A stretch of DNA of 64,000 nt from a virus. The notes under the pieces were generated by a model. The model was not told the origin of the DNA. It ran no database searches and was given only the letters and a program-made list of their open reading frames with translations. Location: positions 1-64,000 of IMG/VR virus record IMGVR_UViG_3300040801_005040; one strand, written 5' to 3'. This document shows, piece by piece, positions 1-28,804 of this stretch; position 1 is the first letter of the stretch; each line of letters starts with the position of its first letter. The translations under genes and the position numbers were made by a program.

Positions 1-1752
1 AATACCTGTTTGCATAATGGCAAACAAGTTCAAACGCTGATAGAAATCAGCACTTTTTTTAAGTCCCAGAAAAGCATTTAACGCTTCTCTTTCATTGGGA
101 GATTTAAATACACGATATGCTTCATCAATAATTTCTTTATCTTCTGCAGAATCCCTTTTTGAAATAGGTTTAAGCGCATCTAATCCTCCTTCCTGTTCAT
201 TTATTACAGGTAAAAGAGCATTTAATAGAGGCATTCCATCAAATTCTATAGGAGTAAATAATTCAATTATTTGATTTTCAAGATCAAGTGTATTATTTAA
301 TGGCGCAGTTGCCCATTCTTTTATTAAAGAAAGTGCATCAGAGGGTATATACTTACTTATTGTTTTATCAATTGCTTCTCTTGGAACATAATTTTTTGAT
401 ACATATGTACCTTTATCTGGTTGATATGTATCAAACAAATCAATTCTTCCACCTCTATTAAATACTATTAATATTTGCCCTTGTTTTGAATCAATTTCTA
501 TTTCAAATGATTTTCCTTGCTGTTTAAAATTTGCATCAATTACATTAGGGATGCCTTTTTGCTTTTTTTCAAAAAACTGTTTTAATTTTCGTATTAGTTT
601 AGGTACTGAGTTAGGACCTTTGAAAAGACTATTGACGTAAGTTTGATGGTCAATAGGGCCTTCTTCGTTTAACAGGAACATTATAAAGTCTGCTTCTGTT
701 TTACGAATCATCCTTTCTTGATAGTCAGGATTAAAGCTTAGCTCAGAAAGTGTTTCCTTAAGGGCATCAAGCTCTTCTTTGTAACCAGGAAGTTGAGATA
801 AAAGAAATTCAGATATTCCTGTTGTCCCATTAATTGTATTTTCTCCTTTAAAATCATTTTTAGCGTTCCAGAAAGTTCCAACAAAGCCATCAAACATCCT
901 ATCATAGTTGATGAACATTCCGCTTTTTTCCACTTCTTTACGCAACGCAAGTTGGTTTTCCATCATAGAAAAAGTCTTAAATCCTTGAGTATCAGGAGAT
1001 GTAGACTTAATCATTTTACCAAATATCTGAGCTTCACGTTGGAGCTCCAGAAAAATGTCAAGGGCTTTAAATTGAACTTCTTTATTAGCTCCATTTGTCC
1101 TTATTCCTTCTTCAAGCTCATCTATGGTAAAATCATCGTAGATTTTTTGTTTTCTGTCATCTTCAGTTTTTACCTTATCTTCAATGTCTTTTTCAACAAA
1201 GAAAATCATGTCATCAATTTTCTTGCTATTAAGACCTCTTGGACTAAGAACCTTTGCCACTATTTGAGCTTTTGAGCTCCTTATATCATTTGATACTGAA
1301 TTTGACTGGGAGAATTCATTTATATACTCCTTTATGATAGGTTGATTTACAAAATAGAATATGGTCTTAAAGGGTACTCCCTGACGAACTAGCATTAAAA
1401 TTGTATTAGCTACCTCATTAACTCCGTTAATATCAAGGATATAAGGGTCTTTAGCAACATCTACATAAGCTGTCATAAGCTCTCCAAGCAGTTTACTAAT
1501 GAATACATTTTCTTCATTAGTAATCCTTCCTAAATCATATAGAAATTCAGGTTTAGCAGGGCTCTTTTTTTCTTCTTGTTGTTTTTTAGGAATAACTATA
1601 AGGCTTTGGGTTGAAGGAATACCAAGCTCTTGCTGAATGGCCTGATATTCTTCATTGATAGCTTCAGCTACAGCTTCATTTTCAGAGAATCCTTCGTCCA
1701 GATATTTCTGTGCCCTTTTTTTAAGTTCTCCTTTAAGACAATCTACTGACAT
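1..1752 (-). CDS. Virion RNA polymerase, C-terminal part (partial, runs off left edge)
   Basis: An uninterrupted minus-strand frame of 584 codons begins with ATG at 1752 and is still open at base 1. It overlaps the end of the preceding gene by 10 nt. After a charged N-terminal segment (about 1-60), residues about 87-143 contain the stretches LLGELMTAYVDVAKDP and VNQPIIKEYI. From memory of crAss-like phages, such a segment follows the DxDxD catalytic region of the giant virion RNA polymerase in the same chain. Here that catalytic region is in the gene at 8318-12952, so I infer this is the detached C-terminal portion of a split polymerase packaged in the capsid. It could instead be an ordinary separate polymerase subunit. 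That the frame is real is very likely; the assignment is moderately sure. Confidence 0.75.
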   Translation of the reverse strand, partial: MSVDCLKGELKKRAQKYLDEGFSENEAVAEAINEEYQAIQQELGIPSTQSLIVIPKKQQEEKKSPAKPEFLYDLGRITNEENVFISKLLGELMTAYVDVAKDPYILDINGVNEVANTILMLVRQGVPFKTIFYFVNQPIIKEYINEFSQSNSVSNDIRSSKAQIVAKVLSPRGLNSKKIDDMIFFVEKDIEDKVKTEDDRKQKIYDDFTIDELEEGIRTNGANKEVQFKALDIFLELQREAQIFGKMIKSTSPDTQGFKTFSMMENQLALRKEVEKSGMFINYDRMFDGFVGTFWNAKNDFKGENTINGTTGISEFLLSQLPGYKEELDALKETLSELSFNPDYQERMIRKTEADFIMFLLNEEGPIDHQTYVNSLFKGPNSVPKLIRKLKQFFEKKQKGIPNVIDANFKQQGKSFEIEIDSKQGQILIVFNRGGRIDLFDTYQPDKGTYVSKNYVPREAIDKTISKYIPSDALSLIKEWATAPLNNTLDLENQIIELFTPIEFDGMPLLNALLPVINEQEGGLDALKPISKRDSAEDKEIIDEAYRVFKSPNEREALNAFLGLKKSADFYQRLNLFAIMQTGI

Positions 1753-2024
1753 TTCAAGAATGATTTTATAATTATGAGGATTTCTTCATCCTCCATTTTT
1801 ATTTGTTTGTATATGAGCTCTCTTTTATCCTGCTCTTCACGTATTAATTGACCTATGCTCTTTGCTCCTCCCCCAGAGTAATTAACCCCTCTTTTAGGCT
1901 CCTCTGGTATAACAGGAGGTATTATTACAGTACAATTGTTTAAATAACCATTTGTAGCTATGGGAAGTGTTTTTCCACATCCGCTTAAATATCCATCTGA
2001 CGCTATACCTAAAGTATATCCCAT
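1743..2024 (-). CDS. Small virion-associated protein with repeated DGYL-type motif
   Basis: This 93-residue protein has two short N-terminal repeats (ASDGYLSGCG and ATNGYLNNCT), a proline-rich hinge (PPVIPEEP), a Gly-rich GVNYSGGG segment and a charged helical C-terminus. Small proteins of this build sit downstream of fibre genes in marine phage structural cassettes, where they are taken to be minor virion or fibre-associated parts; no function is proven. It directly follows the 462-residue protein and overlaps the start of the polymerase C-terminal gene by 10 nt, so translation of the two is probably coupled. The specific role is unknown. Confidence 0.65.
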   Translation of the reverse strand: MGYTLGIASDGYLSGCGKTLPIATNGYLNNCTVIIPPVIPEEPKRGVNYSGGGAKSIGQLIREEQDKRELIYKQIKMEDEEILIIIKSFLKCQ

Positions 2025-3412
2025 TACTGTCTGGTTACTATAGATGTAGTTTCACCATCTCCTGATATTGCGAGATCAACAGTACCTGCAACTCTTTGAG
2101 TCTCTGTTATTGTCAAAGGATTAGAACTATCAAGACCTTGTATTTGCCATAGTTCCATTAATTTGGCAATTATTTCATTAAGCGCTGTTCCTGTACTACT
2201 AGGAGTAACGTTATTAGCTGTAAGCTGATTCCATACAGCTTCAGCAATAGCAGTGTTATCTACAACTGCTGTAGCATCAACATTACCATTAAAAATAGTT
2301 AGATTCCTTATACTTAACCCACCATTAATTACACTATCCCCATTAGCTATTAAATTTCCATTTTCATCTGTAAGTCTTCCATTGCCTCTTACTACTAATT
2401 CTCCGGCAGTACAGGTATTTGAATCAATAGATACATCAGCTCCCATCAAATCAAGTGTCATTGAACCACTTGCATTATTAAAATTAGTAACTGCCAATCC
2501 TCCTGCATAACGTCTGAAATTAATACCTGCTGCAGTACTATTACAATTAAGTATAGGTCTAGATGTACCTGCTATACCAGATGAACAGTCAGTGAATATA
2601 ATTGGCATTGTTGCTGAAGCATCTAAAGTAATATTTCCTTTTATTATACAACTTTGAAATATTCCTTGTACTCCTGTAAAAGGTGATGCCTCACCTAAAA
2701 AACATTGATAAAATGCACCGTATCCTGAAATACTACCTCCTATGGAAATTCTTTCAAACCCTGAATCATCAACAAGTAAGTTACTTGCAGTAATGACACC
2801 ATCAGCAGGAGTTTGAGCCGTTATATAATATCTATCTATTCCTACGTTACCTGTTGCAACAAAGGATCCTCCAACATGAAATTTATGTAATCCTTCTCTT
2901 ATGGCAATAGTTATTGCATCAGTTACGTTATTTACTGCATTGGGAGGAGTACCTCTCGGAAACTGAGTTCCTGCTTCACCATCTATGGAATCTACCCAAA
3001 CCATAGCTCCAGTAAAAGATTGGGAGTTAATTGAATCAGAGAAAGTAAGACCTGCTGAGTTGTTAGGTCGAATAGATACTTGGTTTACAACTACTTTATC
3101 TTGTACGTTAGTATTAGCTCCATTGAGTTGTACTGCATATTGTCCATCTTCAAATTCTACAATATAAGGTGATAGAATTACTACCACAGGTGCAAGCTGT
3201 ACTCCTCCTACAGATATTGGAGCAGTATATTGAAATGCTGTAGGTGCCCATGCTCCTTCTGGATCATCTTGTAAATCAGCTAAATCTTGAGCGAAAGTAG
3301 TAAGAGATATTTGTCTGATTTCAAGTCCTGTTTGTGGATCAATAGAAACAAATTGAGTATAAGTCTTTGGGACAAATATAATATTTGTATTATAGTCTAT
3401 TGATATTGCCAT
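2024..3412 (-). CDS. Putative virion/fibre protein, beta-rich
   Basis: The 462-residue product has no signal peptide or membrane segment. Its middle (about 150-380) is rich in Ser, Thr, Asn, Gly and Ile in an irregular alternating pattern typical of beta-solenoid or fibre shafts. A predicted helical stretch follows (about 385-425), then a short beta C-terminus with the segment RVAGTVDLAISGDGET. I recognise this only as a type of structural protein found in environmental phages. The upstream neighbour (3412-5289) and this gene share base 3412, so they are translationally coupled. A fibre shaft, baseplate-like part or decoration protein is equally possible. Confidence 0.6.
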   Translation of the reverse strand: MAISIDYNTNIIFVPKTYTQFVSIDPQTGLEIRQISLTTFAQDLADLQDDPEGAWAPTAFQYTAPISVGGVQLAPVVVILSPYIVEFEDGQYAVQLNGANTNVQDKVVVNQVSIRPNNSAGLTFSDSINSQSFTGAMVWVDSIDGEAGTQFPRGTPPNAVNNVTDAITIAIREGLHKFHVGGSFVATGNVGIDRYYITAQTPADGVITASNLLVDDSGFERISIGGSISGYGAFYQCFLGEASPFTGVQGIFQSCIIKGNITLDASATMPIIFTDCSSGIAGTSRPILNCNSTAAGINFRRYAGGLAVTNFNNASGSMTLDLMGADVSIDSNTCTAGELVVRGNGRLTDENGNLIANGDSVINGGLSIRNLTIFNGNVDATAVVDNTAIAEAVWNQLTANNVTPSSTGTALNEIIAKLMELWQIQGLDSSNPLTITETQRVAGTVDLAISGDGETTSIVTRQ

Positions 3413-5289
3413 TATTCATCACTTAACATTACTACTGTAATGGTTGTACCTGTATCCTTATTCAAAGTTCCTACAATACCTCCTGGTTTAAGATAAGGTG
3501 AACCTGATGATTTCCTTACAGTACCTGTTACTGGTTGGTTTGCTGTAAAAGTTGCTGTATAACTTGCCTCTCCATTACCATCTGTAGTAGTACTTATAAA
3601 CACAAAGCTACTTACCGGGTTCCCTGTTGCAGGGGTTACTGGAGTACCAGAAACAGTGTAATCATATGTGTTAGTAGTAACATTCGATATGGTTCTGATA
3701 CCATTATATTCATTTTCATTAGCTCCTCGTATCACTACTTTATCTCCATTGGCAAGACCATGGGCATTATGTGTTACTGTAGCAATAGAACCACTGCGAG
3801 TAATACTTACCGAAGCCTGATAAGGTTTTGTAGCACCTGCTGCTGTCTCACATAGCACTCTGGCTGATGATACGTTAGTACCTGATACATCCACCACTTT
3901 TATAGTCAATGTTACAGCTCCTGCAATTACATCTACGTTACCAGTAAAACCAGTTCCTTTTCTTACAGAAGGTACTGTTGCTCCAGAAACTACATTGATT
4001 GTAAATGTAGCACTACTGGTAAAGTTAAGATAAATTGCTTCATTTCCAGTAGAGGTGGTAGTTACATTGCTTCCTGAAGTTCCTGCTACGTATCCTGAGA
4101 GACTATTATCCCAGCTTATTGTGCCAGTACCTACAGAGTTAATTTCTACGGCATGATTAGAACCATCTGAAGTAAATTCATTACCCGTAATATTAGCTAT
4201 ACCAGCGGCTCCTGTAAGTACTGAAGCACTGGAAGTTGAATTCGCTATTGCACAACCTGTAAGTGTAGCTGATCCTGCAGTTATTAATCCACAACCGTTA
4301 AAATTACAACCTATAAGGGTACCATTTGATTGATAAATAGATGTTCCAAAATTATTGAAAGTACATCCATTTAAATTTACAGTAGCATTATCTATCATTT
4401 CAAAATACCCTACACCGTTAGCTGTAGTAGCTGTTGAATTGAATGTAACGTTATTCCAGGTTACTGAAGAACTGGCATTATTTATTTCAATTTTGTTAAA
4501 CGAAGGATAAGTATGAGGACAATCCTCTATAGTTACTGTTACGTTAGAATCTGTAAATGTAACACTGGTTCCTGTAAGACCAAATGACAATAATCCTTTC
4601 CATGAATATCCACCACCTGCTGCAGCAAATAACCCTAGTACATGTCTTCCACTATCAATGGATGTTGATGATGTTCCGGGAGGGGTTCCACCAGCATTAT
4701 AGTCATTGTATTGGGCCATTTCATCGAAAGAGCCACCAGTACCTGTAATACTTAATTCTCCCCTACCATATCGTATTGCATCTACAGCTGCAGGATCACC
4801 TTTGGTTACTTCGTTAAGTGTATTTGGTACACCACCAAAATATCTATATGAACCTCCATTACCCCCTCCAATGGTTCCACTTTCCGTAGCAGTAGGATCA
4901 ATTGCAAAATTTCTCCACCCTCCTAATTTATGGTTACTGTAGTCAGAACCCCCAACCCTAAACCAATCCCAGGCAGAAGTAGATGAGCCTATGCCAATTC
5001 TCCAACCGCTATTGGCGTATGTATTTAAGTTAGTTCCAGAAAAATAAAACAGCCACATAAAAACAACTTCACCCGCAGCAAAGGTTACGTTTGAACCATT
5101 ATCAAATACACAAGAGATTTCTAAGCCAACAGCTTTACCAGTAGTCTGTGAACGGCAGTCAGTACCTTGAATAAAGTTTTCGCCAGAAGCAGCAGGACTA
5201 CCACCTCCGTTATAAGGCGAGGCAAATTCAGTCCAGGTGCCAGATTCAGCAGTAGTTAAAGTTGTTAAATCTGTACTATACGTGGCCAT
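3412..5289 (-). CDS. Putative virion/tail fibre protein with beta-helix centre
   Basis: The product has 625 residues. The N-terminal half (about 1-240) is Gly/Ser/Thr-rich and looks like a lectin-type beta sandwich. Residues about 245-400 show short repeating rungs with Asn and Cys (LNGCTFNNFGTS, LIGCNFNGCG, LTGCAIANST), as in a right-handed beta-helix. Near residue 500 the segment HGLANGDKVVIRG is a motif common in phage tail and fibre proteins. The start ATG lies 14 nt inside the end of the upstream YkgJ-like gene. I infer a receptor-binding or shaft protein; no enzymatic residues are evident. Confidence 0.65.
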   Translation of the reverse strand: MATYSTDLTTLTTAESGTWTEFASPYNGGGSPAASGENFIQGTDCRSQTTGKAVGLEISCVFDNGSNVTFAAGEVVFMWLFYFSGTNLNTYANSGWRIGIGSSTSAWDWFRVGGSDYSNHKLGGWRNFAIDPTATESGTIGGGNGGSYRYFGGVPNTLNEVTKGDPAAVDAIRYGRGELSITGTGGSFDEMAQYNDYNAGGTPPGTSSTSIDSGRHVLGLFAAAGGGYSWKGLLSFGLTGTSVTFTDSNVTVTIEDCPHTYPSFNKIEINNASSSVTWNNVTFNSTATTANGVGYFEMIDNATVNLNGCTFNNFGTSIYQSNGTLIGCNFNGCGLITAGSATLTGCAIANSTSSASVLTGAAGIANITGNEFTSDGSNHAVEINSVGTGTISWDNSLSGYVAGTSGSNVTTTSTGNEAIYLNFTSSATFTINVVSGATVPSVRKGTGFTGNVDVIAGAVTLTIKVVDVSGTNVSSARVLCETAAGATKPYQASVSITRSGSIATVTHNAHGLANGDKVVIRGANENEYNGIRTISNVTTNTYDYTVSGTPVTPATGNPVSSFVFISTTTDGNGEASYTATFTANQPVTGTVRKSSGSPYLKPGGIVGTLNKDTGTTITVVMLSDE

Positions 5290-5713
5290 ATTCTCTTAAT
5301 GAGTTAATATATTCCATCCATATGTCCCTTTTATTATGACCTTTGGCAACTTCTATGTGAGGTTGTCCAAATAGTTTTATCATTACTACTGAGTAGCCTT
5401 GCTTTTTAAAAGCTTCAATTTGATCTCTTGCTATATTTGAGACAGATTTATTTGGAACAACAGTTCCTACAAATATTCTATCAGTCTTTTTAAAGAACAT
5501 GACATCACACTTATCAGGACGCAGTGAAATATTACTAGTTCCGCTTTCAATGTAAGCACATTCAAAATCTTTACATTCCTGTGGGTGATTACCATAAATA
5601 CTACAGCTATTACTAATGCAATATTTACATGCCTCTCCAGCTTTTTTATTAAGCTCTTTGACGACACTTAAAGTACAGCATACAGTACATTCTCCACATT
5701 CTCCCTTTGCCAT
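5276..5713 (-). CDS. YkgJ-family-like cysteine cluster protein
   Basis: This 145-residue soluble protein opens with a dense cysteine cluster: CGECTVCC at residues 6-13, then CKYC, a Cys near residue 37, and further Cys in PQECKDFEC. The CxxCxxCC arrangement with later Cys pairs is the hallmark of the YkgJ/CxxCxxCC family (PF03692), thought to bind zinc or an iron-sulfur centre. The biochemical role of the family is unknown. The gene sits between a terminator hairpin and a fibre gene inside a structural cassette, which suggests a part in maturing or modifying virion proteins; that is inference. Confidence 0.75.
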   Translation of the reverse strand: MAKGECGECTVCCTLSVVKELNKKAGEACKYCISNSCSIYGNHPQECKDFECAYIESGTSNISLRPDKCDVMFFKKTDRIFVGTVVPNKSVSNIARDQIEAFKKQGYSVVMIKLFGQPHIEVAKGHNKRDIWMEYINSLREYGHV

Positions 5714-5718
5714 AATTT

Positions 5719-5749
5719 AATTAATAAAAAGGGGAGGAATCCTCCCCTT
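5719..5749 (-). terminator. Rho-independent terminator inside the fibre cassette
   Basis: A perfect 9-bp inverted repeat (AAGGGGAGG/CCTCCCCTT, positions 5729-5749, loop AAT) lies just downstream of the stop codon of the 627-residue protein. On the minus strand it is followed by TTTTTATTAATT, the expected U-tract. It stands 16 nt before the start of the YkgJ-like gene, so it could end or attenuate transcription between the two halves of the cassette. Confidence 0.8.
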
Positions 5750-5752
5750 ATA

Positions 5753-7636
5753 TTAAAAGTCATCAATCCTACCTACAGTAGATGAACCTCCACCAGAACC
5801 AACAAGGGCTGTAGTTTCAAAGGTCTTAATTTCTACCCCAGGGTTTGCATTACGTACCCTTAAGAAGAGTGTTCTATCTGTATTGTATACATATGTAACA
5901 GTTTCTGGGTTTCCAGTTGCAACTCTATCTATATAAGTCACAAAAAGGTTATTCCCAGCAGTAGCTGCGTTAACGCCTGAAAAATCAGTAGAAGGAATAG
6001 TAAATGTGCTTCCTGTAAAGGATGTGTAAGGTACTCTTTTATAAGAACCTGAATCCAGCTGTATTCTCAGAGTTCCTGATGGGGAAGGAATATCTGTAGC
6101 AATGGGTGTAGTTACAACAATAGAGGTAATACCTGCACTATTGTAAGTGGCATTGGTTGAATACTGACTAAAGTTAAAATCTCCGCCATTATTGATAGCT
6201 GCAATAACATAATCTCCAGAAACAGTGTTGTTTACTGTGTAAGTTACGTTATTCGGAGGAGTTCTTGTAGTACCAGTAAGGTCAATAGGCCTATCGTTTT
6301 GTCCAAGATCTGCAGACTCAATACCAGAACCAAATGCTCCAAGGATAGCAGCACCAGTAGATGATCCAATAAATGGAAGCTGAATGGTTTGAGAAGTTAC
6401 AGTTATATTAACCAGACAGGTTGCACCAGATGTGATACCTTCAATACTTTGGTTATTAGCTGGAGCTACACCTGCGAGAAGTTGAATCCAACATTCAGTA
6501 CCAGCAGTGGTAGAATCAATAGCTAAGAGCTGACCCCATCCAGTAATGGTTTCTGCAGTACCAGTTCCAGTACCTATACCAGTAGCAGTAAAGATTGTAC
6601 CAGGGCTAGAGTCAGCTGCTCCAATGGTTGTAAAATCTGTGGTTCCTGTTGTTCTGATAACATATGTGTTACCTATTACAAATGAACCCGCAGTAATATC
6701 TACAGCAGTACCCCAAGTAACCCTTTCTGGTTCAATAAATGTTCCTGTAGGGCTATCAATTTCTACAGAGTGGGTAATACCACGGAAGATATCTCCTGGC
6801 AATCCATAAATATTCTGGTCAACATCTCTGGTATCATTACCCCCACCAATATCACCTACACGGGTTTGAATCCATTTGGCTCTTTCATAGAAGTCATTCT
6901 TGCTTTGAGAACCAATGTTCCACTCAGAGTAAAAAGGATAGTTTGTACCGCCAATATTAATCAGGTTGTATCCTTCTGTAACGTTGGTAATGCTATCCCA
7001 ACTAGCAATAGTGGCTCCTGCTGTCTGGTTGTTGTTATCAGGGTTGGCAGTAAGTGCCAATACGTTGTTACCACGGTTAGTACCACCTCCAATGAAGAAT
7101 TCAGTGTAAGTAGTTCCAAGCTCACGCTGTGTACCAAGCAGACGTCTACCATCAATATCTACTCCATTATCCCTTACTTTAATAAGGAAACGGTGAGTTG
7201 TAGAAGAAGCTGCATCAGAAGTAGCTGCTTTGTGATTAGGATAGTTCCAGAAGTCATCATCAATACGTGCTCCATTCTGGATAACTTGAATTATAGATGA
7301 ATTACCAAACACCTGAATACCATCATAAATAGTAGCCCCATTTGCTTGTGTAATAGATCCATCATAGATGTGTTGCGAAGACGCATCATCAATGTTACAT
7401 CCATTCAACAGCGAGATGTTGGTATCCGCACCACCCCTGTCTGAAGGGGTTTTATCAATGATGGACAGTTCATCATCTCCAGTGTCTTGTTCATCATCAG
7501 CAAGGGCCTGGAGTCCCCTGTGAACTTCAATTGTCGTTGCATAGGTAGCTGCCCCAGTGTGGTCTGCACCAATATAACGAAGATCTAAAGCTCCTCCATT
7601 TCTGGTAATGCTCCAATCTGCTAATACAAATGCCAT
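5753..7636 (-). CDS. Large virion/fibre protein of marine-phage type
   Basis: The 627-residue product is rich in Thr, Gly, Ile and Asn with almost no Cys, typical of secreted or virion beta proteins. Around residues 310-360 it carries FVIGNTYVIRTTGTTDFTTI followed by FTATGIGTGTGTAE. This matches a module seen repeatedly in tail and fibre proteins of marine phages (general form VIGTTY..GTTDFT.IGA..FTATG.G.GTGTA). The N-terminus (ADWSITRNGGALDLRYIG) begins without a leader, as expected for a virion protein. The gene starts 3 nt after the 111-residue gene and ends at a strong terminator. I infer an adhesion or tail-appendage protein. Confidence 0.65.
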   Translation of the reverse strand: MAFVLADWSITRNGGALDLRYIGADHTGAATYATTIEVHRGLQALADDEQDTGDDELSIIDKTPSDRGGADTNISLLNGCNIDDASSQHIYDGSITQANGATIYDGIQVFGNSSIIQVIQNGARIDDDFWNYPNHKAATSDAASSTTHRFLIKVRDNGVDIDGRRLLGTQRELGTTYTEFFIGGGTNRGNNVLALTANPDNNNQTAGATIASWDSITNVTEGYNLINIGGTNYPFYSEWNIGSQSKNDFYERAKWIQTRVGDIGGGNDTRDVDQNIYGLPGDIFRGITHSVEIDSPTGTFIEPERVTWGTAVDITAGSFVIGNTYVIRTTGTTDFTTIGAADSSPGTIFTATGIGTGTGTAETITGWGQLLAIDSTTAGTECWIQLLAGVAPANNQSIEGITSGATCLVNITVTSQTIQLPFIGSSTGAAILGAFGSGIESADLGQNDRPIDLTGTTRTPPNNVTYTVNNTVSGDYVIAAINNGGDFNFSQYSTNATYNSAGITSIVVTTPIATDIPSPSGTLRIQLDSGSYKRVPYTSFTGSTFTIPSTDFSGVNAATAGNNLFVTYIDRVATGNPETVTYVYNTDRTLFLRVRNANPGVEIKTFETTALVGSGGGSSTVGRIDDF

Positions 7637-7639
7637 AGT

Positions 7640-7975
7640 TTATAGTATTTTAAATTTTCTTCCCGAATCTTTGACTACATAAATTACCTTCAATTTATCT
7701 TTGTCTTCGTTTTCTGAGAATTGTTTGATTAATAAATTTTCTTCTGATACGTTAACTGTAATATACTCTTTTCTGTTTTCTGCTTTGAATAAAAAGGTTG
7801 AATTGATATGATCATATATACCTTGATATTCAAAATCATTTTGCTCTAACTCTTCTATTACCGCTGAAAATCCACTAAATAATTTAAAGGGCAATTTAAT
7901 TAGAGTGAGATCATCCCCTAAAGAATGAGCTTTAGTTTCAGTGTTAGATTGAGGTTCTTTCTTTTTTCTTGCCAT
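7640..7975 (-). CDS. Hypothetical protein in fibre cassette
   Basis: This 111-residue protein has a basic N-terminus (MARKKKEPQ), then a mixed alpha/beta region with a central acidic segment and a C-terminal strand pair (KVIYVVKDSGRKFKIL). It has no membrane segment and no cysteines. I do not recognise the family. It is packed between the 117-residue gene (1 nt gap) and the 627-residue fibre gene (3 nt gap), so it is co-transcribed with virion genes and may be an assembly factor or minor structural part. Confidence 0.6.
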   Translation of the reverse strand: MARKKKEPQSNTETKAHSLGDDLTLIKLPFKLFSGFSAVIEELEQNDFEYQGIYDHINSTFLFKAENRKEYITVNVSEENLLIKQFSENEDKDKLKVIYVVKDSGRKFKIL

Positions 7976-7976
7976 C

Positions 7977-8330
7977 TTAAATTGCTTTCGCTTTTACCGT
8001 TTTTATTAACTCGTTATTATCCCTTATTATATCAAATGTCCATTCCTTAGGATCTTCTTCTTTCTGGTATTCATTTACTGTTGCTATCAAAGCTTCAATC
8101 TTCCTTACAATAGCATCTCCCATCGCTTCTACTGCTCTTGGAATAGAATCATCCTTTTCCTTTACAGACAAAGTCTGTAGAATAGTTATCATCGTTTCAA
8201 ACTCAGACTTGTTGTCAGGAATCTCACTTGGTATTGATTTAAGAATTTCATCAAGCTTTAATATAACAGCTTTATGATTCTTTTCTTCCATCAAAGCCTG
8301 GAACTCCATAAGACTGGCTAGCTTTTCCAT
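7977..8330 (-). CDS. Hypothetical helical protein, first gene of the inserted cassette
   Basis: The 117-residue protein is largely helical and acidic (MEFQALMEEKNHKAV; SLVKEKDD-type segments; VEAMGDAIVRKIEALIATV). I chose the ATG at 8330; a GTG two codons upstream (8336) would overlap the polymerase gene further. It overlaps the last codons of the 1544-residue protein by 13 nt and continues the same transcript. I do not recognise the family; a small coiled-coil virion accessory protein is plausible. Confidence 0.6.
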   Translation of the reverse strand: MEKLASLMEFQALMEEKNHKAVILKLDEILKSIPSEIPDNKSEFETMITILQTLSVKEKDDSIPRAVEAMGDAIVRKIEALIATVNEYQKEEDPKEWTFDIIRDNNELIKTVKAKAI

Positions 8331-11300
8331 ATACACTTAATTTGCTCTTCAAGTTGCTTAGCTCTTTTTTCAAGCTCTTGTTGCTTTAGGAACCTGGAAG
8401 TACCATCTTCAAAGTTAAGTAACTCTTCCTTAGTGAGAAAATTAAAGTTAATGGTTGGCTTGTTAACCAGTTCACTTAATACTGGTTCAACAGTCTCTTC
8501 TATAATGATAGGTTGGTTAAGTTTAGAAACTCCAAAATAATCATGGAGTGCCCTCATCTTAAGCCCTGCTATTTGAGAAAGAATGTGATTGGTTGAATGT
8601 ACAGCAACCTGACCAACTCCTGCCTTACCAGAAAGGAATTCAATCATTTTGTCAATGTTCTTGCTTGGCAGGAATATGTCAGACCAATTTTCTTCTACCT
8701 CATCTCCCCGAAGTTCCCTGATTTCTTCTACAATAGATTTAATGTTTTCAGTGCCAAGCGGAGTAAGAAGCTGTTTCCAGTTTGAAGGATGCAATGTAAG
8801 GGCAATTTCATTTTCAAGGGCTTTGTTCTGAAGCTGTGCATCAGAAAGTTTTGAAATTTCACCTTTAGGGGTTATATAATCCGTTTCAATTGACTTTTTT
8901 AGTGATCCAAGAATTTCTTTGTACTGTCTATTATATATTTCCCTGTTCCTATCATTTATCAGGCTTTCTGGTTCTACTTGCAGAATTCCTTCTACAAACC
9001 ATTTTTTCAATGTTTCAATATCTTGCTCAGCATAATTCTCGCCAATCCCTTCTGCTTTAAGTGCACGTATGATTGGACCAGGATTATCTTTAAAAATAGC
9101 ATTCGTAAACTTAAAAGCTTCTTTACTTGACGGGAGGATTACAGGGGTGTATGTATTTAATTTATCAATATCAAAGTCAGATCCTGTCTTTACTACAAGA
9201 GCTTTAGGTACTATAACCATACTACCCATATAAGGAGGATAGAAAGCTTTTACCTTACCAACGTCAGAAGAAGAAGATTCAGAGTTAGGAATACGAAAAC
9301 CTACAAAAAGGGTCATTTTTGTAAGATTGGTTTCTACTCCAGTCTGCTCATATCTTTTGTTATCTTCAGCAATACGTTCATTGAAAGCATCAAGTGCAGC
9401 TTTAGTAACCCCTTTTCCATTGTTGTACGTTACACTTACATAATCCATAAGTGATTTAGGCAAAGGAGAATAAACCTCCATTGGAAGCATTCTTGACTTA
9501 TCTATTTTTCCATTTTTATCTCTGGCATAACGATAAAATTTAAGGTCATGGCGAGAGACCCCACCAGGCATTTCAAACCCTGTATTAGACATCTGAGCAA
9601 GAGAAACCCCATGTCTTTTTTGACGAATTACACCATTGCGCATTTTCGCCATTATAAATTGCTCTACCCTTGCTTTGTTGGGAAGTGCATCGAGATAAGG
9701 AATATCTTCTTCTATGAGAAGTTTCAAGGCAAGCAATTCATTTGAAGTGAATCCCTGAAGTTTTGCCATGGAACTAATACTCTCAATGAAAGTTTTTACC
9801 CTTTGATCTCTGTTTTTTTCATTAAATCCAAGTTTGTTTTTAAGTTTAGCATAAGCCCTGCGAATTTTTTCTTTCTGAATCTCTTGATATTCATCAATAA
9901 TAGTTTTTGCAGAAGGATCTTTCAGCACTCCATTCTCATAGTAATTGGAGAGATTTAACTTTCTTTTCTGTGTAGATTCAGTTTCTTCATTCTTAAGCTC
10001 TTTACGAATCTTTAGTTGATTTCCAATATCCTTATAGTGTATTTCGTCAACACTTTCAGAGGTTATTTTAAGTTCATTTAAAGAGTGAAGGGGTTTTCCT
10101 TTTGCATCTGCTTTATGTCCAAACTTAGCAGCTGATTCAAAAAATGCCATTCCAACTCCATTAGATAGCATTTCTCGGTTCAAATTATCCAGAACAGAAC
10201 CTTCTTTAAACAACCCAGGAATAAGAGGCATGAATGCAAACTTTCTACCACCTATGACATTAACCAAAGGAAGTTCAAGCTTACCTACATACTGCGATTT
10301 ATCAGGGATGATTCTATTCAGATATTTTTCTTCAATTATAAAGTCTTTCCCAGATGTTACTTTTTGGTAAATCTCTTCATCTATAGGCTCCCATTCTGAG
10401 TATCGAATTTTCATAATTCGATATTCATCGTATGTAATTAATGCAAAACCATCAGCTTCATTTATTTCTGAGTAAAGTTTTGTATCACCTAATTGATCTT
10501 TTATAAGCGACACTTCTTCTTCACTGAAATCATTGATGTCACTGATAATGTCCTGTAACGTAATTGTTTTAATTACAGGGCTTGACATGTCTCTGGAATA
10601 CCCATATTTCTTTTCAAGATTGCTTTCCAAAGTTCCAAGAAACTCATTTATTTCATTATCTGTACGAGTTGCTTCCTTAGTGGAATTCAACATACTCATA
10701 CGCTTAAAGAAATTAGCAGGCTTGCCGTACAAAAGAGGGTCTCCAGTAAAGAGTTTGGTTATTTCAATATTTCCTATGTAAGCATTGATAGCATAGTTGG
10801 CAACTACATTTTCAAAGCTTCCATACAATTTAGTAAGACTTTCAACATCTGACTTTTGAATTTTTTGTTTGGAAATATATTCTTTTTCCGTTTCGATTAT
10901 TTCGTTTATCTTTTTGTCAAGAAACTTATCTACAGTTGGATTATCTTTTAATTGCTCAATTGTCATTTGAGAAAGATCCTTTGTAGAAAGTAGATTAGTG
11001 CCATCTTTAAGTGTAAATACCCTTGTTGCATTTGGAGATAGATATAGATTCTTTATTCCTGATAATGGATAAAGTTCATTAGCATCTAACTCAGCCCTTA
11101 AATGACTAAGTAAATAAAGTTTGGCGTTTGCGAAGTTTTTTTCATCGAAATCTATATTGGCAAACAATCCCCTTTTGTTGGTTCTTCCTTCTATTGAAAA
11201 AACATTTTCAATTTTTCTATCTGCTGCCCTTAAGAAATGATATTTTCCTTCCTGTAACGTATGATATATACGTTGAATAGTAAGGTCTTTTCTGTTTAAG

Positions 11301-12952
11301 TCTGATGTTTCACTTGAATTTCCACTATCGGAATTTTTCATTCCAGATGCTATTTCAATTACAAGTTTTTCTCCTTCAATAATATAACTTACAAGTGTGG
11401 AGCTTGCTGTATAAGGATCACTTTCAAATTCCGGGAATTCTTCAAGTAGCGCTTTTTTATTATCTGAAAGACTATTAATCCTTTTTACTTTATTTGAAAG
11501 ATATGTGTTTAAGCTTATTCCATATACCAGCTTGTTATTTATATTGTAATGCTGAAGTTCTATTGTATTTGGATCATTTAAAACATAATGAGATGCAAGT
11601 TTAAGTAGACGTGCCCTTACATCAAACTTACCTGTTTTTCTGGAATAAATGGATTTTAATTCTTCTAAATTCGGAATTCCCCTTTTTTGTATTTCTTCTA
11701 CAATTTCATCTGGGAAAACAGCATAATTTTTTACATCAATGCCTATTGCTTTTAGGAAAGCTGCTTTAGATAATTTTCTTATCTGTTCTGCAGTATAAGG
11801 CAATCCTTTTAATTTTAACAATCCAAAATTAGCCTCCCATTCTGCCAGCTTTACGTTAGATGCTTTATCAAGATTTTCATTGATTATCTTCCAAACCCCA
11901 TCTTCTTTTACATCAAGGGTATATTCATATTCTGTTTTGTCAAACTGATTTACAAAAAGACTGCGAAGCCTTTGTTCCTTTACTGCAATTTCAGGGTTTG
12001 TATCATAAGCAAATACTTTTTTTCCAAAATTTAACTGGTCAATCAGTTGAGCCATGTGAGGAAATGCCGCTTCTTTTTGTTGAAGCAATAGTGTATACAA
12101 ATCAATATCCCCGGGATATTTTGCCAGTGTTTGATGTATCATATTAAATGTTTTATGATAATCAACAAGCTTTGGAAACCCTAATTGATTTACTTCACCC
12201 GGCACTTTTAATGATGCTATCATCATCTTAATTGCCTTAGGTGCATTGTCAATACTGCTAAATTCATTTGCTGATTTATTAAATGCAGTATCTTTTGTAG
12301 CTTTTTCCTCTACTTCTTCAAGACTTTCATTAAGCATGCTTTCACCATCTTCAATAGAATCAAAAGTGAGATTCATTGTTGATTTCAAGTGAATGTTATA
12401 TGCTTCTATAAAAAACTCTTCGTTGTTTCGTATCTCAGACAGAATATCCATTGCACGACCTGAAAAGCTAGTTTCTCCATATTTATCAATATCTTCCAGA
12501 ATAGTTTTTTCCAGGAAGTTTGTCATCTTTTTAAAGATGTTATTGGTAATATTAGAGAGCTGTGCAGTTCCATCCTGAATATCAACAAAGGACATTCCTT
12601 TTTTCTCAGCAAGTACCTCAGGAAAAAATCCCGTCATACCCTGAGCAATTGAGGTAAACTCATTTGCAGTTAGCTCAATCTTATTTGTTATAAAGGTTTT
12701 TTGAGTTTCAACACGATTTAAAATGTGTTTTCTCCATGCCAGATACTCATCAATTACAGGCTCTCCCTGATGAGTTTTTTCAAAATCCCTACCAGAAAGC
12801 CAATTAGGAAATGAATCTTTACTAAAACCTTCTCCTTTTATAACAGTATCGTATATATAATCAGCCTTTTGCTTATACTTTTTTTGAAGGTCTTTATAAA
12901 GAACACTGTCTTCTTTACTTACACTTGTATCAAATAAATTTGCACAATTCAT
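8318..12952 (-). CDS. Virion RNA polymerase, catalytic N-terminal part (DFDID motif)
   Basis: The product has 1544 residues. Near residues 1218-1263 the order is RIPNSES, KVKAFYPPYMG, IVPKALV, then GSDFDIDKL with aspartates D1259, D1261 and D1263. This parallels the catalytic double-psi beta-barrel of the RNA polymerase beta-prime subunit (RxPTLH..., AFxP, G, NADFDGD) and of the crAss-like virion polymerases typified by Cellulophaga phage phi14:2 gp66. GVGMAFFESAAKFG near residue 930 is a candidate for the partner barrel, and SNTGFE near 1120 is another family-typical motif. Such enzymes are packaged and ejected to transcribe early genes. The chain ends soon after the barrel (VAVHSTNHIL, then a charged helix); the usual continuation is found at 1-1752. 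Confidence in the polymerase assignment is good. Confidence 0.82.
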   Translation of the reverse strand: MNCANLFDTSVSKEDSVLYKDLQKKYKQKADYIYDTVIKGEGFSKDSFPNWLSGRDFEKTHQGEPVIDEYLAWRKHILNRVETQKTFITNKIELTANEFTSIAQGMTGFFPEVLAEKKGMSFVDIQDGTAQLSNITNNIFKKMTNFLEKTILEDIDKYGETSFSGRAMDILSEIRNNEEFFIEAYNIHLKSTMNLTFDSIEDGESMLNESLEEVEEKATKDTAFNKSANEFSSIDNAPKAIKMMIASLKVPGEVNQLGFPKLVDYHKTFNMIHQTLAKYPGDIDLYTLLLQQKEAAFPHMAQLIDQLNFGKKVFAYDTNPEIAVKEQRLRSLFVNQFDKTEYEYTLDVKEDGVWKIINENLDKASNVKLAEWEANFGLLKLKGLPYTAEQIRKLSKAAFLKAIGIDVKNYAVFPDEIVEEIQKRGIPNLEELKSIYSRKTGKFDVRARLLKLASHYVLNDPNTIELQHYNINNKLVYGISLNTYLSNKVKRINSLSDNKKALLEEFPEFESDPYTASSTLVSYIIEGEKLVIEIASGMKNSDSGNSSETSDLNRKDLTIQRIYHTLQEGKYHFLRAADRKIENVFSIEGRTNKRGLFANIDFDEKNFANAKLYLLSHLRAELDANELYPLSGIKNLYLSPNATRVFTLKDGTNLLSTKDLSQMTIEQLKDNPTVDKFLDKKINEIIETEKEYISKQKIQKSDVESLTKLYGSFENVVANYAINAYIGNIEITKLFTGDPLLYGKPANFFKRMSMLNSTKEATRTDNEINEFLGTLESNLEKKYGYSRDMSSPVIKTITLQDIISDINDFSEEEVSLIKDQLGDTKLYSEINEADGFALITYDEYRIMKIRYSEWEPIDEEIYQKVTSGKDFIIEEKYLNRIIPDKSQYVGKLELPLVNVIGGRKFAFMPLIPGLFKEGSVLDNLNREMLSNGVGMAFFESAAKFGHKADAKGKPLHSLNELKITSESVDEIHYKDIGNQLKIRKELKNEETESTQKRKLNLSNYYENGVLKDPSAKTIIDEYQEIQKEKIRRAYAKLKNKLGFNEKNRDQRVKTFIESISSMAKLQGFTSNELLALKLLIEEDIPYLDALPNKARVEQFIMAKMRNGVIRQKRHGVSLAQMSNTGFEMPGGVSRHDLKFYRYARDKNGKIDKSRMLPMEVYSPLPKSLMDYVSVTYNNGKGVTKAALDAFNERIAEDNKRYEQTGVETNLTKMTLFVGFRIPNSESSSSDVGKVKAFYPPYMGSMVIVPKALVVKTGSDFDIDKLNTYTPVILPSSKEAFKFTNAIFKDNPGPIIRALKAEGIGENYAEQDIETLKKWFVEGILQVEPESLINDRNREIYNRQYKEILGSLKKSIETDYITPKGEISKLSDAQLQNKALENEIALTLHPSNWKQLLTPLGTENIKSIVEEIRELRGDEVEENWSDIFLPSKNIDKMIEFLSGKAGVGQVAVHSTNHILSQIAGLKMRALHDYFGVSKLNQPIIIEETVEPVLSELVNKPTINFNFLTKEELLNFEDGTSRFLKQQELEKRAKQLEEQIKCIWKS

Positions 12953-15900
12953 TATCTTCCTAATTTTCGTTTAGTACTGAACATAGGGCCAGCACACTGT
13001 TGTTGTTCTTCAGTAGGTTGTTGAGCAGGTTGTTCACTAGTGGTTACAGCGCTTTCTGCTAAAGCTGCTTTCATTTCATCAGATATTGCATCAAGATCAT
13101 CTGACTTTTTAGCATAAGCTGCAAGTGAAGGAGCTGCATCCTCTACACTTTTTGGTTTCTCAGCTTGTGTTTTCTTTGCAAAAGTAGCAAGGCTTAATCC
13201 TGCATTTGGCGCAGGACGAGAAGCTGTAGGTTCTTTTTCTGTTTGTACTGGCTTAGGAGGAGTTGGACCATCTAACCTTTTTCCAAATTCTGCATATTGG
13301 TTTACAAACTGAGGGAGCCTTTGGTTTTCTGAGGGAGGTTTAACCTCAGTGTAAAGATATTTATCAATTACATATTCTTGATAATTAGGCACCATTTTAT
13401 ATTCCACTACAGGAGAATTAAGGGTTTTATCAAAATACCATCCCGTAGGAACAGGCATTTTATCTGTCATTCTGCTACCCCTGTCTATAACGTTAAGATA
13501 CTTATAATTTAGGAAATTTACGAGGCTTGCCAAAGTAGGATCATTGGAAGTTTTGACTCCTCCTTTTTCATTAAATAATGCATTTACGGGAAAGTCAGTT
13601 ACAATTGGATCACCTTTAGCATTTAAGCCTTGCGTAAAGCGTATGAACTTTTCTTTTGTCTTACGGCTTGTCCACAGGGATATATTCCATGCTTTGTTTG
13701 CCTCTTTTGTATTCCAGCTAATAAAATGATCTAAGATACCCGGATCTCCTTTATGTCCAAATAGAGGTATAGTATATTTAACTTTACCATCTTTCCCGGG
13801 TTTCATTGGAAAATCAATATTGTAATTGGGCCCAATGTACTTTGCCATCGCCAGGAAGGAAATGATAGTGTTGAGCATCTTAGTCCTTTCCCCTTGAGTT
13901 AAAGAGCCGATTGTTCTATTGAGTACCCTTTGAAGCTGTCCATTTTCAAGTTCAGCATATACCTTACCATCTTCAAGACCAATTATTTTTTTTCCAATCC
14001 TTTTACTGGTATCAGCAATTACAAGATTTTTAACGTTAAACACTGAAGTTATCTTATTTTTACTATCTCCTATGTTTTCAGCAGGAACAAATCCCCTTGA
14101 CACATGGTCTACACCAAAATATATTTGCTCTCCCCTGTTTGCTGCACTTAACAAAGAATCTCTCCAGTCAGTATAATCCCTTTCAATTTTATTTATGACT
14201 GCTTCTCTGGCATCTTCATATGATGTATAAGAAGCATTATCAAGAACATAAGGTTTTTCAGCAGAAATGCTTTTCCTTCTTTTTTCCAGAAGGATCATGT
14301 TCTCATTATCACTTAATCTTAATGTTTGCGTACCATCTGCTCTAAAATAGGTTTCTGGTTTTGCAACACCTGCAAATACAGGTTCCCCATTTTCACCAGT
14401 TACAACCTCTCCATTTTTATATAAGATTGTATAGAGTGCATCTGTGTCTTCTACTGGAGGCACTACATTGAATGCACTTAATTGCTGGTTATTAACTACA
14501 CGAAGGGAATAATTAGACAGCTCGCTAAGATTGATATTCATCATTGCTTTGCTCCACTGTACTGCTTGCGCTAATTTTTTTGGATTAGGTTGGACATCCT
14601 TCATTGTAGCATCAGTATACACATTTGTAATGGTAGACTGAGGGTTTGCTTTAAGTGGCCCAGAACCTATTGGGGAAATGGAACTAGTTCCATCTTGTTC
14701 TATCCTTCTTTTTTCTGCCCTGTTTTGTTTTTTGGGAAAAGACACTAATTCTCCTAAACGCTCTTTTCTTTCAATAAGACGTTGCTTTCCAATTATATAT
14801 TGAAGAGTTTCCTTTTCTATTATATAATCGTTGATTTTCTGACGCTTTTTATTAAGCTCTTTAAGCCTCTTGGAAACAGCTAAGAATTCTTGTCTGTACT
14901 CAATCAAATCAGCTGCAATTGGATTCATTGCATCTGTAAGAGTACGCAGAAAATCTCCACGTATTTCAGGATCAAACATTAAAATACTTAAGTCTGCAAG
15001 ATCCAACAGGTTTTTTACATAACCTCTTGGAAAGCTATCTCTTGTAAAATCTGCAAGTTCAGGATAGTTTTCAAGGATAAATGGCCTGTTGGCTTGTATA
15101 AACTTGAGGATTCTCTCAATATCCCCGTTTCTAATAGCATCCTTAAATTCAAATCTTTGCTCAAGCATTTCGCTTAGCTGATTGATAATATCTTGAAGGT
15201 CTTCCTGCTGTTGCTCAAGCTCGGCTATTTGAAGCACTGTACTTTTTTGTAAAGCATCAAGGTTTTCAAACTTTATGGGGAACTCCCCATCCTTCATTTC
15301 TTGCTCAAGTGCTTTTAAACGAAGGGTAAAGATTTGTTGGTAGCCTTCTTCAATTCCCTGTAAAAGTTCAGCTTGTATGTCAATAAGCAATTGAATGCTC
15401 TGCTCAATCCTTTCAAGCTCAAGATATCTGCTTTCAAGATCATTTGCTATTTTGGCTCTTTCTTCCTCAAGGACTGCAAGATCACGCACTATGCTTGATA
15501 CAGGAATTTCATCCTGTGTTAGCCAATACTGAATCTCTGCCTCAACCTGACGCATTTTTTCAGCCCTTTCAGACATTTCCTCTTCAAGCCTTTCTCTTTT
15601 ACCTTGATAGAGGAGCTGCATTTCCAGGATTCTCTCTTCGTATTGCCTTGCTCTTTCTTCTGCGCGATTTATTTTACGCCAATTCTTATATTCTTTGGCA
15701 GACAGTATTGAGTTTTCATCTAGCCCTCTGGATTTAAGTTCTTCCAGAGTAAGATCTACGGCATTTTCAAAATCATATTGTCCTTGCTCAGTCATTGGGA
15801 TAATCATATACTTTTGATTATCCTCCTGGTCAGCTACTTTTTTGATAGCATACTTGTTACCATCTTTATCTTGCAAGGCAACTCCAACATCCTCCATCCC

Positions 15901-18252: not shown

Positions 18253-20022
18253 TTATTTTCTAGGATCAAATCTATTTAATACAGCATTTTCAAGTTGTTC
18301 TTTGCTTATAGATTGCCATTCTTGCCCATCTTCACTTATAGCAAATCCTTCTGGAGTAAGCATAATACCTACTTCTTGCTGACCATCTTCTGTTGCCACT
18401 ATAATTTTTTCAGGTATTAATGGAGTTGTTCTAATAGAAGACACTACTTCATTTAAATATCTATATGCTTTTCTAACATTTGGATTACCTCCCATGTCAG
18501 AGTCTTTTCTTGACATATAAATTTGCACTGGGTTTCCGCTTCCATCAAGTAATGTAGAGGCAATAGGTTGATCAAAATCACCCTTCCATTGTCTTTCACT
18601 CTTATTCAAATTTGTATATAACATATTATCCCAATCTACTATACCGTCTGCATTTTGTACTTCTTTTACTTTTGTGGGATCAAGATTTAATGATTTAAGA
18701 AGTTCTCTTTTGCTATTGTAAAATTTACCGTTAGCCATAAACTTAGTTCCCGGAGCATTAAATCTTTTATTGACAGCATCTTTCCATTTGCCCTCGTCTT
18801 TGCTTACGCCTTCTGCTATACTACCTAAAGGCATTGATGATACATCTATAATATTAACACTTCTCGTACCTGCAAAAGGAGCTACTGCTGAGAGATATTC
18901 ATGTAATTTTTTTCTATCTTCAATATTATTAATATCAAAATCTGAACCTATTACTTTTTTACCTTGCTCTTGCCATATTTCTTTTTGCGCTTCAGTAACT
19001 CCAAATTCTTGCCAATGTTCAAAAGATACTGTATTTCCTCCGGGCTGTCCAGGATGTCCTGCTTTACCCAAAGCTTGTATAAGACTTGGTTTTCTTGCAG
19101 GATGTACTAGTACATCTATATTGGAATAAATATCATTAACACCGCTAATTTTACCTTCTAAGGAATTAAAGGACAAGGCTTCATTTCCTTGACCTCCTCT
19201 AGCCCATTCTGGTTGGTATTTAAAATCCTGAATTCTCTTATATTCGTTTTGCCTGAACAATGGGGTAACACCCTGAATGCTATTCATAAGTTCTTTTGCA
19301 GGATCAAATCCAGGATCAACTTGACTTCTTGAAATAAGATAATCTCGTATCTCAGAATCAGTAGCTGCAGCTTGAGCAAGGGCAGACATAATTACATCAT
19401 CGGGAAGTTGTTTGGTACTTTGACCATTTTTCCACCACATTCCTGAATCTTCGTCAAGTGTCCATCCGAAAGTTTCCTGAACTATGGGTTTTATTTTAGA
19501 CCCATACTCTACAAGCTTTTTGTTTATGTCAACGGTATTATATCCTGTATATGGATTATAGTTATACCCTTCTGCTACACCTCCAGTTTGGTCATACCTT
19601 GCTTTTGCATAAGCTATCTGACGCATTTGATCTTGAGGGTCAGCTTTAGAATTACTCATTATATCCTTGACATTCTGTTGGTAGGCTGCATAATTAGACG
19701 CAGCTTTTCCTCCAATACCAGAAGGGGATAGAAATTCCTGTTTCTTTCTCTTCAATTCAAGCATTTTGCGCACAGCACCTCTTGAGATACCTTTTGAGGC
19801 TAACTCATCTTCTATACCAGTAAGTCCTTCTTTTATCTCAGTTACTCCTTGTTCTACAATTGCACTATCCGTATCAAGATAAGGAGTGTCAAACATCCCT
19901 TCTTGCATGGCTGTCATTTGCAATTGATCATGGCGCTGTTGCTTTGCAAGTGGCACCATCATTATTTCCTCTAATGAAAGAGGGTTGAAACTGGCAGGAG
20001 TGAGATTGGTATACCTGTTCAT
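18253..20022 (-). CDS. Virion cargo protein
   Basis: This 589-residue soluble protein has an N-terminal helical region (MVPLAKQQRHDQLQMTAMQE; then EIKEGLTGIEDELASKGISR), a Tyr/Gly/Asn-rich patch near 150 (YNYNPYTGYN) and an alpha/beta C-terminal half. No catalytic motif is visible. It overlaps the end of the transglycosylase-bearing gene by 4 nt and is followed 6 nt later by the giant cargo gene. The order muzzle, transglycosylase cargo, this protein, giant cargo, polymerase is typical of crAss-like genomes, so I call it a cargo/ejection protein by synteny. Confidence 0.72.
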   Translation of the reverse strand: MNRYTNLTPASFNPLSLEEIMMVPLAKQQRHDQLQMTAMQEGMFDTPYLDTDSAIVEQGVTEIKEGLTGIEDELASKGISRGAVRKMLELKRKKQEFLSPSGIGGKAASNYAAYQQNVKDIMSNSKADPQDQMRQIAYAKARYDQTGGVAEGYNYNPYTGYNTVDINKKLVEYGSKIKPIVQETFGWTLDEDSGMWWKNGQSTKQLPDDVIMSALAQAAATDSEIRDYLISRSQVDPGFDPAKELMNSIQGVTPLFRQNEYKRIQDFKYQPEWARGGQGNEALSFNSLEGKISGVNDIYSNIDVLVHPARKPSLIQALGKAGHPGQPGGNTVSFEHWQEFGVTEAQKEIWQEQGKKVIGSDFDINNIEDRKKLHEYLSAVAPFAGTRSVNIIDVSSMPLGSIAEGVSKDEGKWKDAVNKRFNAPGTKFMANGKFYNSKRELLKSLNLDPTKVKEVQNADGIVDWDNMLYTNLNKSERQWKGDFDQPIASTLLDGSGNPVQIYMSRKDSDMGGNPNVRKAYRYLNEVVSSIRTTPLIPEKIIVATEDGQQEVGIMLTPEGFAISEDGQEWQSISKEQLENAVLNRFDPRK

Positions 20023-22736: not shown

Positions 22737-22743
22737 ATACTCA

Positions 22744-22774
22744 CAAATGTAACTATTGTTAAGCTGTATTACAA
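22744..22774 (-). promoter_or_regulatory. Bacteroidota-type promoter before the cargo operon
   Basis: On the minus strand TTG (22774-22772) is followed after exactly 20 nt by TACATTTG (22751-22744), matching the Bacteroidota -33/-7 form TTTG and TAnnTTTG. The -7 box ends 7 nt before the ATG of the 905-residue cargo gene, so the transcript would be leaderless or nearly so. It lies in a 54-nt intergenic gap, one of the few gaps in the window. Confidence 0.55.
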
Positions 22775-22790
22775 GGTGATTATAAGCTCA

Positions 22791-27615: not shown

Positions 27616-27618
27616 CTT

Positions 27619-28798: not shown

Positions 28799-28804
28799 AA
28801 CCTC

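Follow-up and report, generated by a model that had tools for sequence, protein, structure and literature searches.

Split RNA polymerase (RNAP) subunits are known from several lineages. In archaea, division of the largest subunit into Rpo1N and Rpo1C puts bridge helix and trigger loop on different chains (PMC2675907), and in jumbo phages and cyanobacteria the split of beta-prime comes after the first double-psi beta-barrel, DPBB-A (PMC7598289). In the virion RNA polymerase (vRNAP) of the crAss-like phage phi14:2, gp66, residue K1615 has been named as the counterpart of the trigger-loop histidine found in cellular RNAPs (PMC8713982). Here we analyse bases 1-64000 of the 101,884-bp virus record IMGVR_UViG_3300040801_005040 (G000), henceforth called the window, whose start is base 1 of the record. 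The phage belongs to the order Crassvirales, and its vRNAP gene occurs as two open reading frames (ORFs) with seven further genes between them. We consider it likely that this vRNAP is made as two chains: the gene would have been opened by a block carrying a fibre cassette, and the halves would be packaged, coupled head-to-tail and complete one active site.

The initial annotation had described a 1544-residue protein and a separate gene starting at 1752, with seven genes between them; all of these are present (Table 1), the second ORF having 584 codons in the window, and all nine genes are co-directional. The short overlaps that it mentioned could likewise be read from the sequence, comprising 13 nt on the N side (ATG 8330 to stop 8318) and 10 nt on the C side (ATG 1752 to stop 1743). 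The N-terminal half (N-half, chain 1) matched the phi14:2 vRNAP in PDB 6vr4 (phmmer, E=1.9e-17). When 43-sequence profiles were aligned with hhalign, it corresponded to gp66 residues 771-1576 (E=4e-108) and the C-terminal half (C-half, chain 2) to residues 1565-2084 (E=6e-39). That is, both halves fall on the same protein, adjacent and in order; the gene starting at 1752 is the continuation of the polymerase, as had been proposed, and the 1544-residue protein does not cover the full enzyme. In agreement, tblastn matches of both halves lie within one phi14:2 gene, g066, and blastp placed them side by side on gp66 and on the RNAPs of nine other crAss-like phages that are encoded by a single coding sequence; on cr118_1 gp14, the first half stops and the second begins at residue 3353. 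A predicted model of N-half residues 651-1544 (predicted local distance difference test score, pLDDT, 78) had 6vr4_A as its top Foldseek match in the PDB (E=1.3e-25). The 584-residue C-half alone gave no match among PDB sequences. Searches of IMG/VR with each half alone returned no close relative, and a C-half profile was needed to recover relatives.

Where exactly is the gene interrupted? According to the initial annotation, the 1544-residue protein ends soon after the DxDxD barrel. It does end before full length, but runs 281 residues past the DFDID motif and through the bridge helix. The DFDID aspartates (D609, D611 and D613 of alignment A3) are invariant in 43 sequences, as is the trigger-loop lysine motif of the C-half. 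From the match to 6VR4 over gp66 771-1576, both double-psi barrels, DPBB-A and DPBB-B, are expected on chain 1. N-half residues 1429-1462, which form a 34-residue helix in the predicted model and align to GKSGVG at gp66 residue 1543, are taken as the bridge helix. Since this helix belongs to chain 1 and K101, the counterpart of gp66 K1615, to chain 2, the break falls, according to the alignments, after the bridge helix and ahead of the trigger-loop lysine, as it does in archaeal Rpo1N/Rpo1C. DFDID and bridge helix are present on the one chain and the lysine on the other. In uncut relatives, the GKxG and VDxAKD motifs are spaced by 58-95 residues (leaving out one odd match), whereas here 103 residues extend from the N-half motif to the end of the protein and 96 residues lie ahead of the C-half motif. 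By this comparison, the two ends together carry about 100 or more extra residues. The N-half tail (residues 1471-1544) is a low-confidence region of the model with a helix at its end and had no tblastn match in relatives; for the C-half head (residues 1-72) no homologue was found in relatives or by profile comparison.

We surveyed three RNAP motifs in 95 crAss-like loci, some of which are redundant, and found them in one ORF in 84 cases, as compared to two ORFs here. Of the remaining loci, one is truncated at its end and in three the gene is interrupted at DFDID; the others have recoded or probably recoded stops. Relatives have an uninterrupted polymerase gene, and in the L147, L149 and L033 records, which contain the cassette's fibre gene, the RNAP motifs likewise share one uncut ORF. 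Matches to group I introns (RF00028) were obtained at DFDID in cr108_1, cr116_1 and L086, above the gathering score in one case and below it in the other two; the cr116_1 intron carries a LAGLIDADG endonuclease ORF. The three vRNAP introns at the DFDID codons have the coordinates 20603-20921 in L006, 10406-11248 in L008 and 8479-9389 in L086. Such introns, together with the finding that introns and inteins are common in the delta and zeta groups of crAss-like phages (PMC7886860), speak for rejoining of the halves at the RNA or protein level, be it through a giant intron, trans-splicing or a split intein. Nevertheless, rejoining appears most improbable. No Rfam match was detected in the interval 1200-8900 even at E<=1, with positive-control introns elsewhere being found, and an intron was consequently rejected as the cause of the interruption. 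Moreover, the present break is located well downstream of DFDID, where the known introns occur, and the insert consists of seven genes, four of which are kept elsewhere as a cassette. The extra residues of the new ends would stay in a rejoined protein, intein motifs were not seen by eye, and the C-half head is predicted to be a helical hairpin.

The motifs of the two halves are 7 kb apart and the half genes 6.6 kb. Fibre-type genes had been noted between them, and three large ones are indeed present (cassette genes 3, 5 and 6; Table 1). Cassette genes 3-6 recur wholly or partly as a colinear block in relatives, with up to 83% identity. Homologues of gene 3 (57-83% identical) are found in six IMG/VR contigs at other positions; gene 4 has 51-60% identical counterparts at the same position in the block of L145-L147; gene 5 is 43-75% identical to genes in the relatives' cassette, and gene 6 is 62% identical in L147 and 37% in L149/L150. 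In L145/L146 the block follows the portal gene, in L149/L150 it precedes the capsid gene, and in L147 it lies downstream of a gp65-like gene; these differing positions indicate that the core of the cassette moves between sites. The related crAss-like phages L147, L149 and L145 (G001, G002 and G004) have the fibre cassette at three genome positions; in some of the relatives' cassettes a Cys-rich protein of ~145 residues is encoded between the fibre genes. Gene 1 had no relative in IMG/VR, and no relatives at all were detected for the small genes 1 and 2 or for gene 7, which encodes 93 aa. The three large genes had no crAss-like match among GenBank phages, and no paralogy of cassette genes was seen within the window. 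An insertion inside an otherwise single gene, observed in one genome only, could also mean that the polymerase is broken and decaying and that the phage relies on host transcription. There is little to recommend this idea, as the two reading frames are unbroken over ~3,780 codons, no invariant catalytic residue has been lost, the coding joints are tidy, and the constraint on cysteine content described below persists on both halves.

At the other end of the contig, a same-strand ORF that is likewise open (L004, 12913-17883) first continues the C-terminal part of the RNAP and then matches cr108_1 gp52 (blastp, E=5e-89) and phi14:2 g065. The contig ends (window base 1 and base 101884) would adjoin inside the C-half gene, where ~16 nt are apparently absent; judged against cr108_1 and the A2 consensus, 5-6 residues seem to be lacking, and the frame offset agrees. 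No direct terminal repeat of at least 12 nt was found at the ends, and the contig probably corresponds to a near-complete genome in circularly permuted form. We infer that the C-half is fused without a stop to a gp65-like RNAP-associated protein, yielding a chain of ~2,245 aa. RNAP ORFs long enough to take in the gp65 part were also observed in L079/L080.

A further line of evidence comes from cysteines at the junctions of the cargo proteins. Cysteines were counted in 66 non-redundant loci in which the RNAP gene and the gene downstream of it are separate, a terminus being defined as 12 residues. A cysteine is present within the C-terminus of the RNAP in 66/66 and within the N-terminus of the downstream protein in 65/66 loci, the start of the sole exception, L020, being probably miscalled. 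The RNAPs contain 138 cysteines in 214,736 residues, 66 of them in the last 12; the downstream proteins contain 77 in 101,405 residues, 66 of them in the first 12. Control ORFs had a terminal cysteine in 13/90 cases at each end. At 11 separate gp67|gp66 joints, cysteines occur at 11 N-termini and 10 upstream C-termini. In phi14:2, g067 has Cys1797 (of 1797 residues), g066 Cys3 and Cys2179 (of 2180) and g065 Cys3 (of 1421). In the present phage, the gp67-like protein has Cys1751 (of 1764), chain 1 Cys3 and Cys1540 (of 1544) and chain 2 only Cys5, which amounts to 4 cysteines in 5548 chain residues as compared to ~35 expected from the other window proteins. Other adjacent cargo-type proteins are also devoid of cysteines, indicating that a low content is general, whereas the terminal placement is specific. 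Each junction-facing terminus of this phage, including both ends created by the split, has one cysteine, while the exons of the intron-split cr108_1 gene have none at the break; the simplest reading is that the two halves are used as distinct neighbours in one cargo chain. Fused neighbours do not have the pair: 25 of 42 gp67+gp66 fusions have a single cysteine, the C-terminal one, and RNAP+gp65 fusions (L079/L080 and this phage) have no pair at the fused joint. A cysteine encoded at the very end of cassette gene 7 (FLKCQ) was disregarded as a product of the overlap with the C-half ATG. In L022 and in L017 ('tikkala', 22477-29409), one gene of the cargo set is on the opposite strand, and the inverted gp47-like protein of 'tikkala' still ends in a lone cysteine.

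Cysteines that face the neighbour in the order gp67-gp66-gp65 are possibly a coupling signal that operates throughout the Crassvirales, and their presence at the new ends suggests that the halves are coupled through them, perhaps by a disulfide, which can be tested. Disulfides between virion proteins of mature PhicrAss001 have been described, none being reported for the cargo (PMC10172136), and a literature search of partial coverage found no report of the terminal cysteine pattern. Alternatively, the split and the two-chain enzyme may be real and the cysteines serve another role, such as metal binding, a packaging signal or attachment to a protein of the virion wall. One cysteine per end would suit any of these, and a conserved terminal signal would likewise be kept at new ends. 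Conversely, the cysteines are at the ends facing the partner in chain order, and the pair is lost where the proteins are fused. We regard such another role as quite possible, if rather on the doubtful side.

Taken together, our data are best explained by production of the vRNAP as two chains from an interrupted gene. In this scenario, a block with the mobile fibre cassette would have opened the polymerase gene between bridge helix and trigger loop, and each new end would have gained an additional tail and one cysteine besides its start or stop. Chain 1 would contribute DFDID, bridge helix and, judged by the match to 6VR4, both barrels, and chain 2 the trigger-loop lysine, the C-terminal part and the gp65-like protein. 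The chains would be produced separately and packaged as cargo in the head-to-tail order gp67, RNAP-N and RNAP-C/gp65, held via their terminal cysteines. Most simply, disulfides would form in the mature virion and be reduced in the new host, inside which the two halves would complete one active site. The split itself is well supported. It, its position, the fusion, the occurrence of the fibre core elsewhere in relatives and the cysteine placement are sequence-level observations, from which we infer co-packaging, coupling chemistry and activity. The initial annotation had envisaged a two-chain complex whose halves are made apart: the genes are separate, and a complex in which the two chains would assemble is the best reading. 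It had not included the exact break site, the gp65-like part fused to the C-half, the mobile nature of the fibre core or the junction cysteines. More generally, and with somewhat less than even confidence, the crAss-like cargo could be pictured as a redox-reversible protein train, in which giant, nearly cysteine-free proteins are linked head to tail through a single terminal disulfide at each joint, are threaded out one after the other and come apart upon reduction in the host; here, a new joint would have arisen within the active-site core of the polymerase, and the enzyme would be completed only after delivery.

Several observations weigh against production of the vRNAP as two coupled chains. 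The predicted model of the C-half is of moderate quality (pLDDT 65), with a weak, not significant best Foldseek match to 6vr4_A (E=0.013). Profile comparison of the new tails with gp65 or RNAP N-termini or with RNAP C-termini yielded scores that did not exceed the shuffled range or did so only barely, and the tails share only the cysteine with known cargo termini; with such scores, a history in which the junction slid across the gene is likewise unproven. The cysteine pattern reveals a constraint, but does not identify its chemistry. Owing to the nucleotides apparently absent at the contig ends, the fusion rests on alignment. Finally, the whole case derives from one metagenomic genome and assembly, and no second, independent copy of the N-side joint was found, although near-identical records may have escaped the search. 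A single record, flawed at its ends and without an independent copy, raises the suspicion of a misassembly that placed a fibre-cassette contig inside the polymerase gene, and the GC content of the cassette (0.36-0.41) is slightly above that of the halves (0.32-0.36). Even so, we judge an assembly artefact to be unlikely: each of two false joins would need a clean start or stop, a short overlap, a tail absent from relatives and a lone terminal cysteine, and all nine genes point in the same direction.

Table 1. Coordinates of the split vRNAP gene, the intervening cassette and the adjoining cargo gene in the window.
Feature	Position	Strand	Remarks
vRNAP C-half	1..1752	-	584 aa in window, open at contig end; resumes at G000 101883-96913
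VDVAKDP motif with trigger-loop lysine	1444..1464	-	C-half residue 101 = gp66 K1615
New N-terminal head of C-half	1537..1752	-	residues 1-72, predicted helical hairpin, lone Cys5
Junction Cys5 codon of C-half	1738..1740	-	
Cassette gene 7	1743..2024	-	93 aa, 10-nt overlap with RNAP C-half
Cassette gene 6	2024..3412	-	462-aa fibre-type protein, weak Pectate_lyase_5 adhesive domain
Cassette gene 5	3412..5289	-	625-aa fibre/spike-type protein, phrog_9998, tail-spike matches
Cassette gene 4	5276..5713	-	145 aa, Cys-rich (10 Cys), phrog_9155
Cassette gene 3	5753..7636	-	627-aa fibre-type protein
Cassette gene 2	7640..7975	-	111 aa
Cassette gene 1	7977..8336	-	119 aa from GTG; in-frame ATG at 8330
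vRNAP N-half	8318..12952	-	1544 aa; DFDID, bridge helix; based on phmmer, hhalign, Foldseek
New C-terminal tail of N-half	8318..8542	-	residues 1471-1544, lone Cys1540
Junction Cys1540 codon of N-half	8333..8335	-	
Bridge helix (as assigned)	8567..8668	-	N-half residues 1429-1462, GKAGVGQ at 1442
DFDID metal-binding motif	9164..9178	-	N-half residues 1259-1263
Cys3 codon of N-half	12944..12946	-	partner side of gp67 joint
gp67-like cargo protein	12952..18246	-	1764 aa, single Cys1751, homologous to phi14:2 g067 (L005)
Joint-side Cys codon of gp67-like protein	12994-12996	-	

The major capsid protein gene at 51439-52947 belongs to phrog_11589, and the window has the capsid/structural block of crAss-like phages. 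Among GenBank records, the phage is nearest to the Steigviridae, its capsid protein being 49% identical to that of cr108_1 from this family and 61-80% identical to those of many uncultured IMG/VR relatives. Two neighbouring virion proteins (18253-20022, 589 aa; 20019-22736, 905 aa) lack cysteine entirely, which would fit further cargo that is ejected; the N-terminus of the 905-aa protein matches the endolysin-like phrog_669.

The locus would thus be a case in which a phage RNA polymerase that is otherwise one chain has been split in nature at the place of the archaeal split, which implies that bridge helix and trigger loop can apparently come from separate chains. It has also exposed a strong pattern in crAss-like phages, i.e. 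giant cargo proteins nearly free of cysteine with one cysteine at each joint, and makes ordering, storage and tail ejection of a megadalton cargo testable with existing virion proteomics. With phi14:2 gp66 (PDB 6VR4) the enzyme is collinear over residues 771-2084 and shares DFDID, bridge helix and trigger-loop lysine, and in both phages gp67- and gp65-like cargo genes flank the polymerase; however, gp66 is one chain of 2180 aa, whereas here there are two, the second fused to the gp65-like protein. In PhicrAss001, gp47, gp49 and gp50 similarly form a transcription cargo of several giant RNAP-associated proteins, and its relative 'tikkala' has the same terminal cysteines, but in 'tikkala' the RNAP motifs are on one gp50-like chain and the gp47-like gene is on the opposite strand. 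The intron-containing genes of cr108_1, cr116_1 and L086 and the fragmented ORFs of the zeta group are further examples of interrupted vRNAP ORFs in crAss-like genomes. In the former three, group I introns are located at DFDID, whereas the present gene is interrupted at a different site by a gene cassette in which no intron was detected. Jumbo phages of the PhiKZ/AR9 type also distribute a catalytic polymerase subunit over separate chains, yet their beta-prime is split after DPBB-A and belongs to a different enzyme lineage. The likeness to archaeal Rpo1N/Rpo1C concerns the split position only and implies neither descent nor membership of the phage enzyme in that group: the archaeal split is an unrelated event in a cellular multisubunit enzyme that is not packaged into virions.

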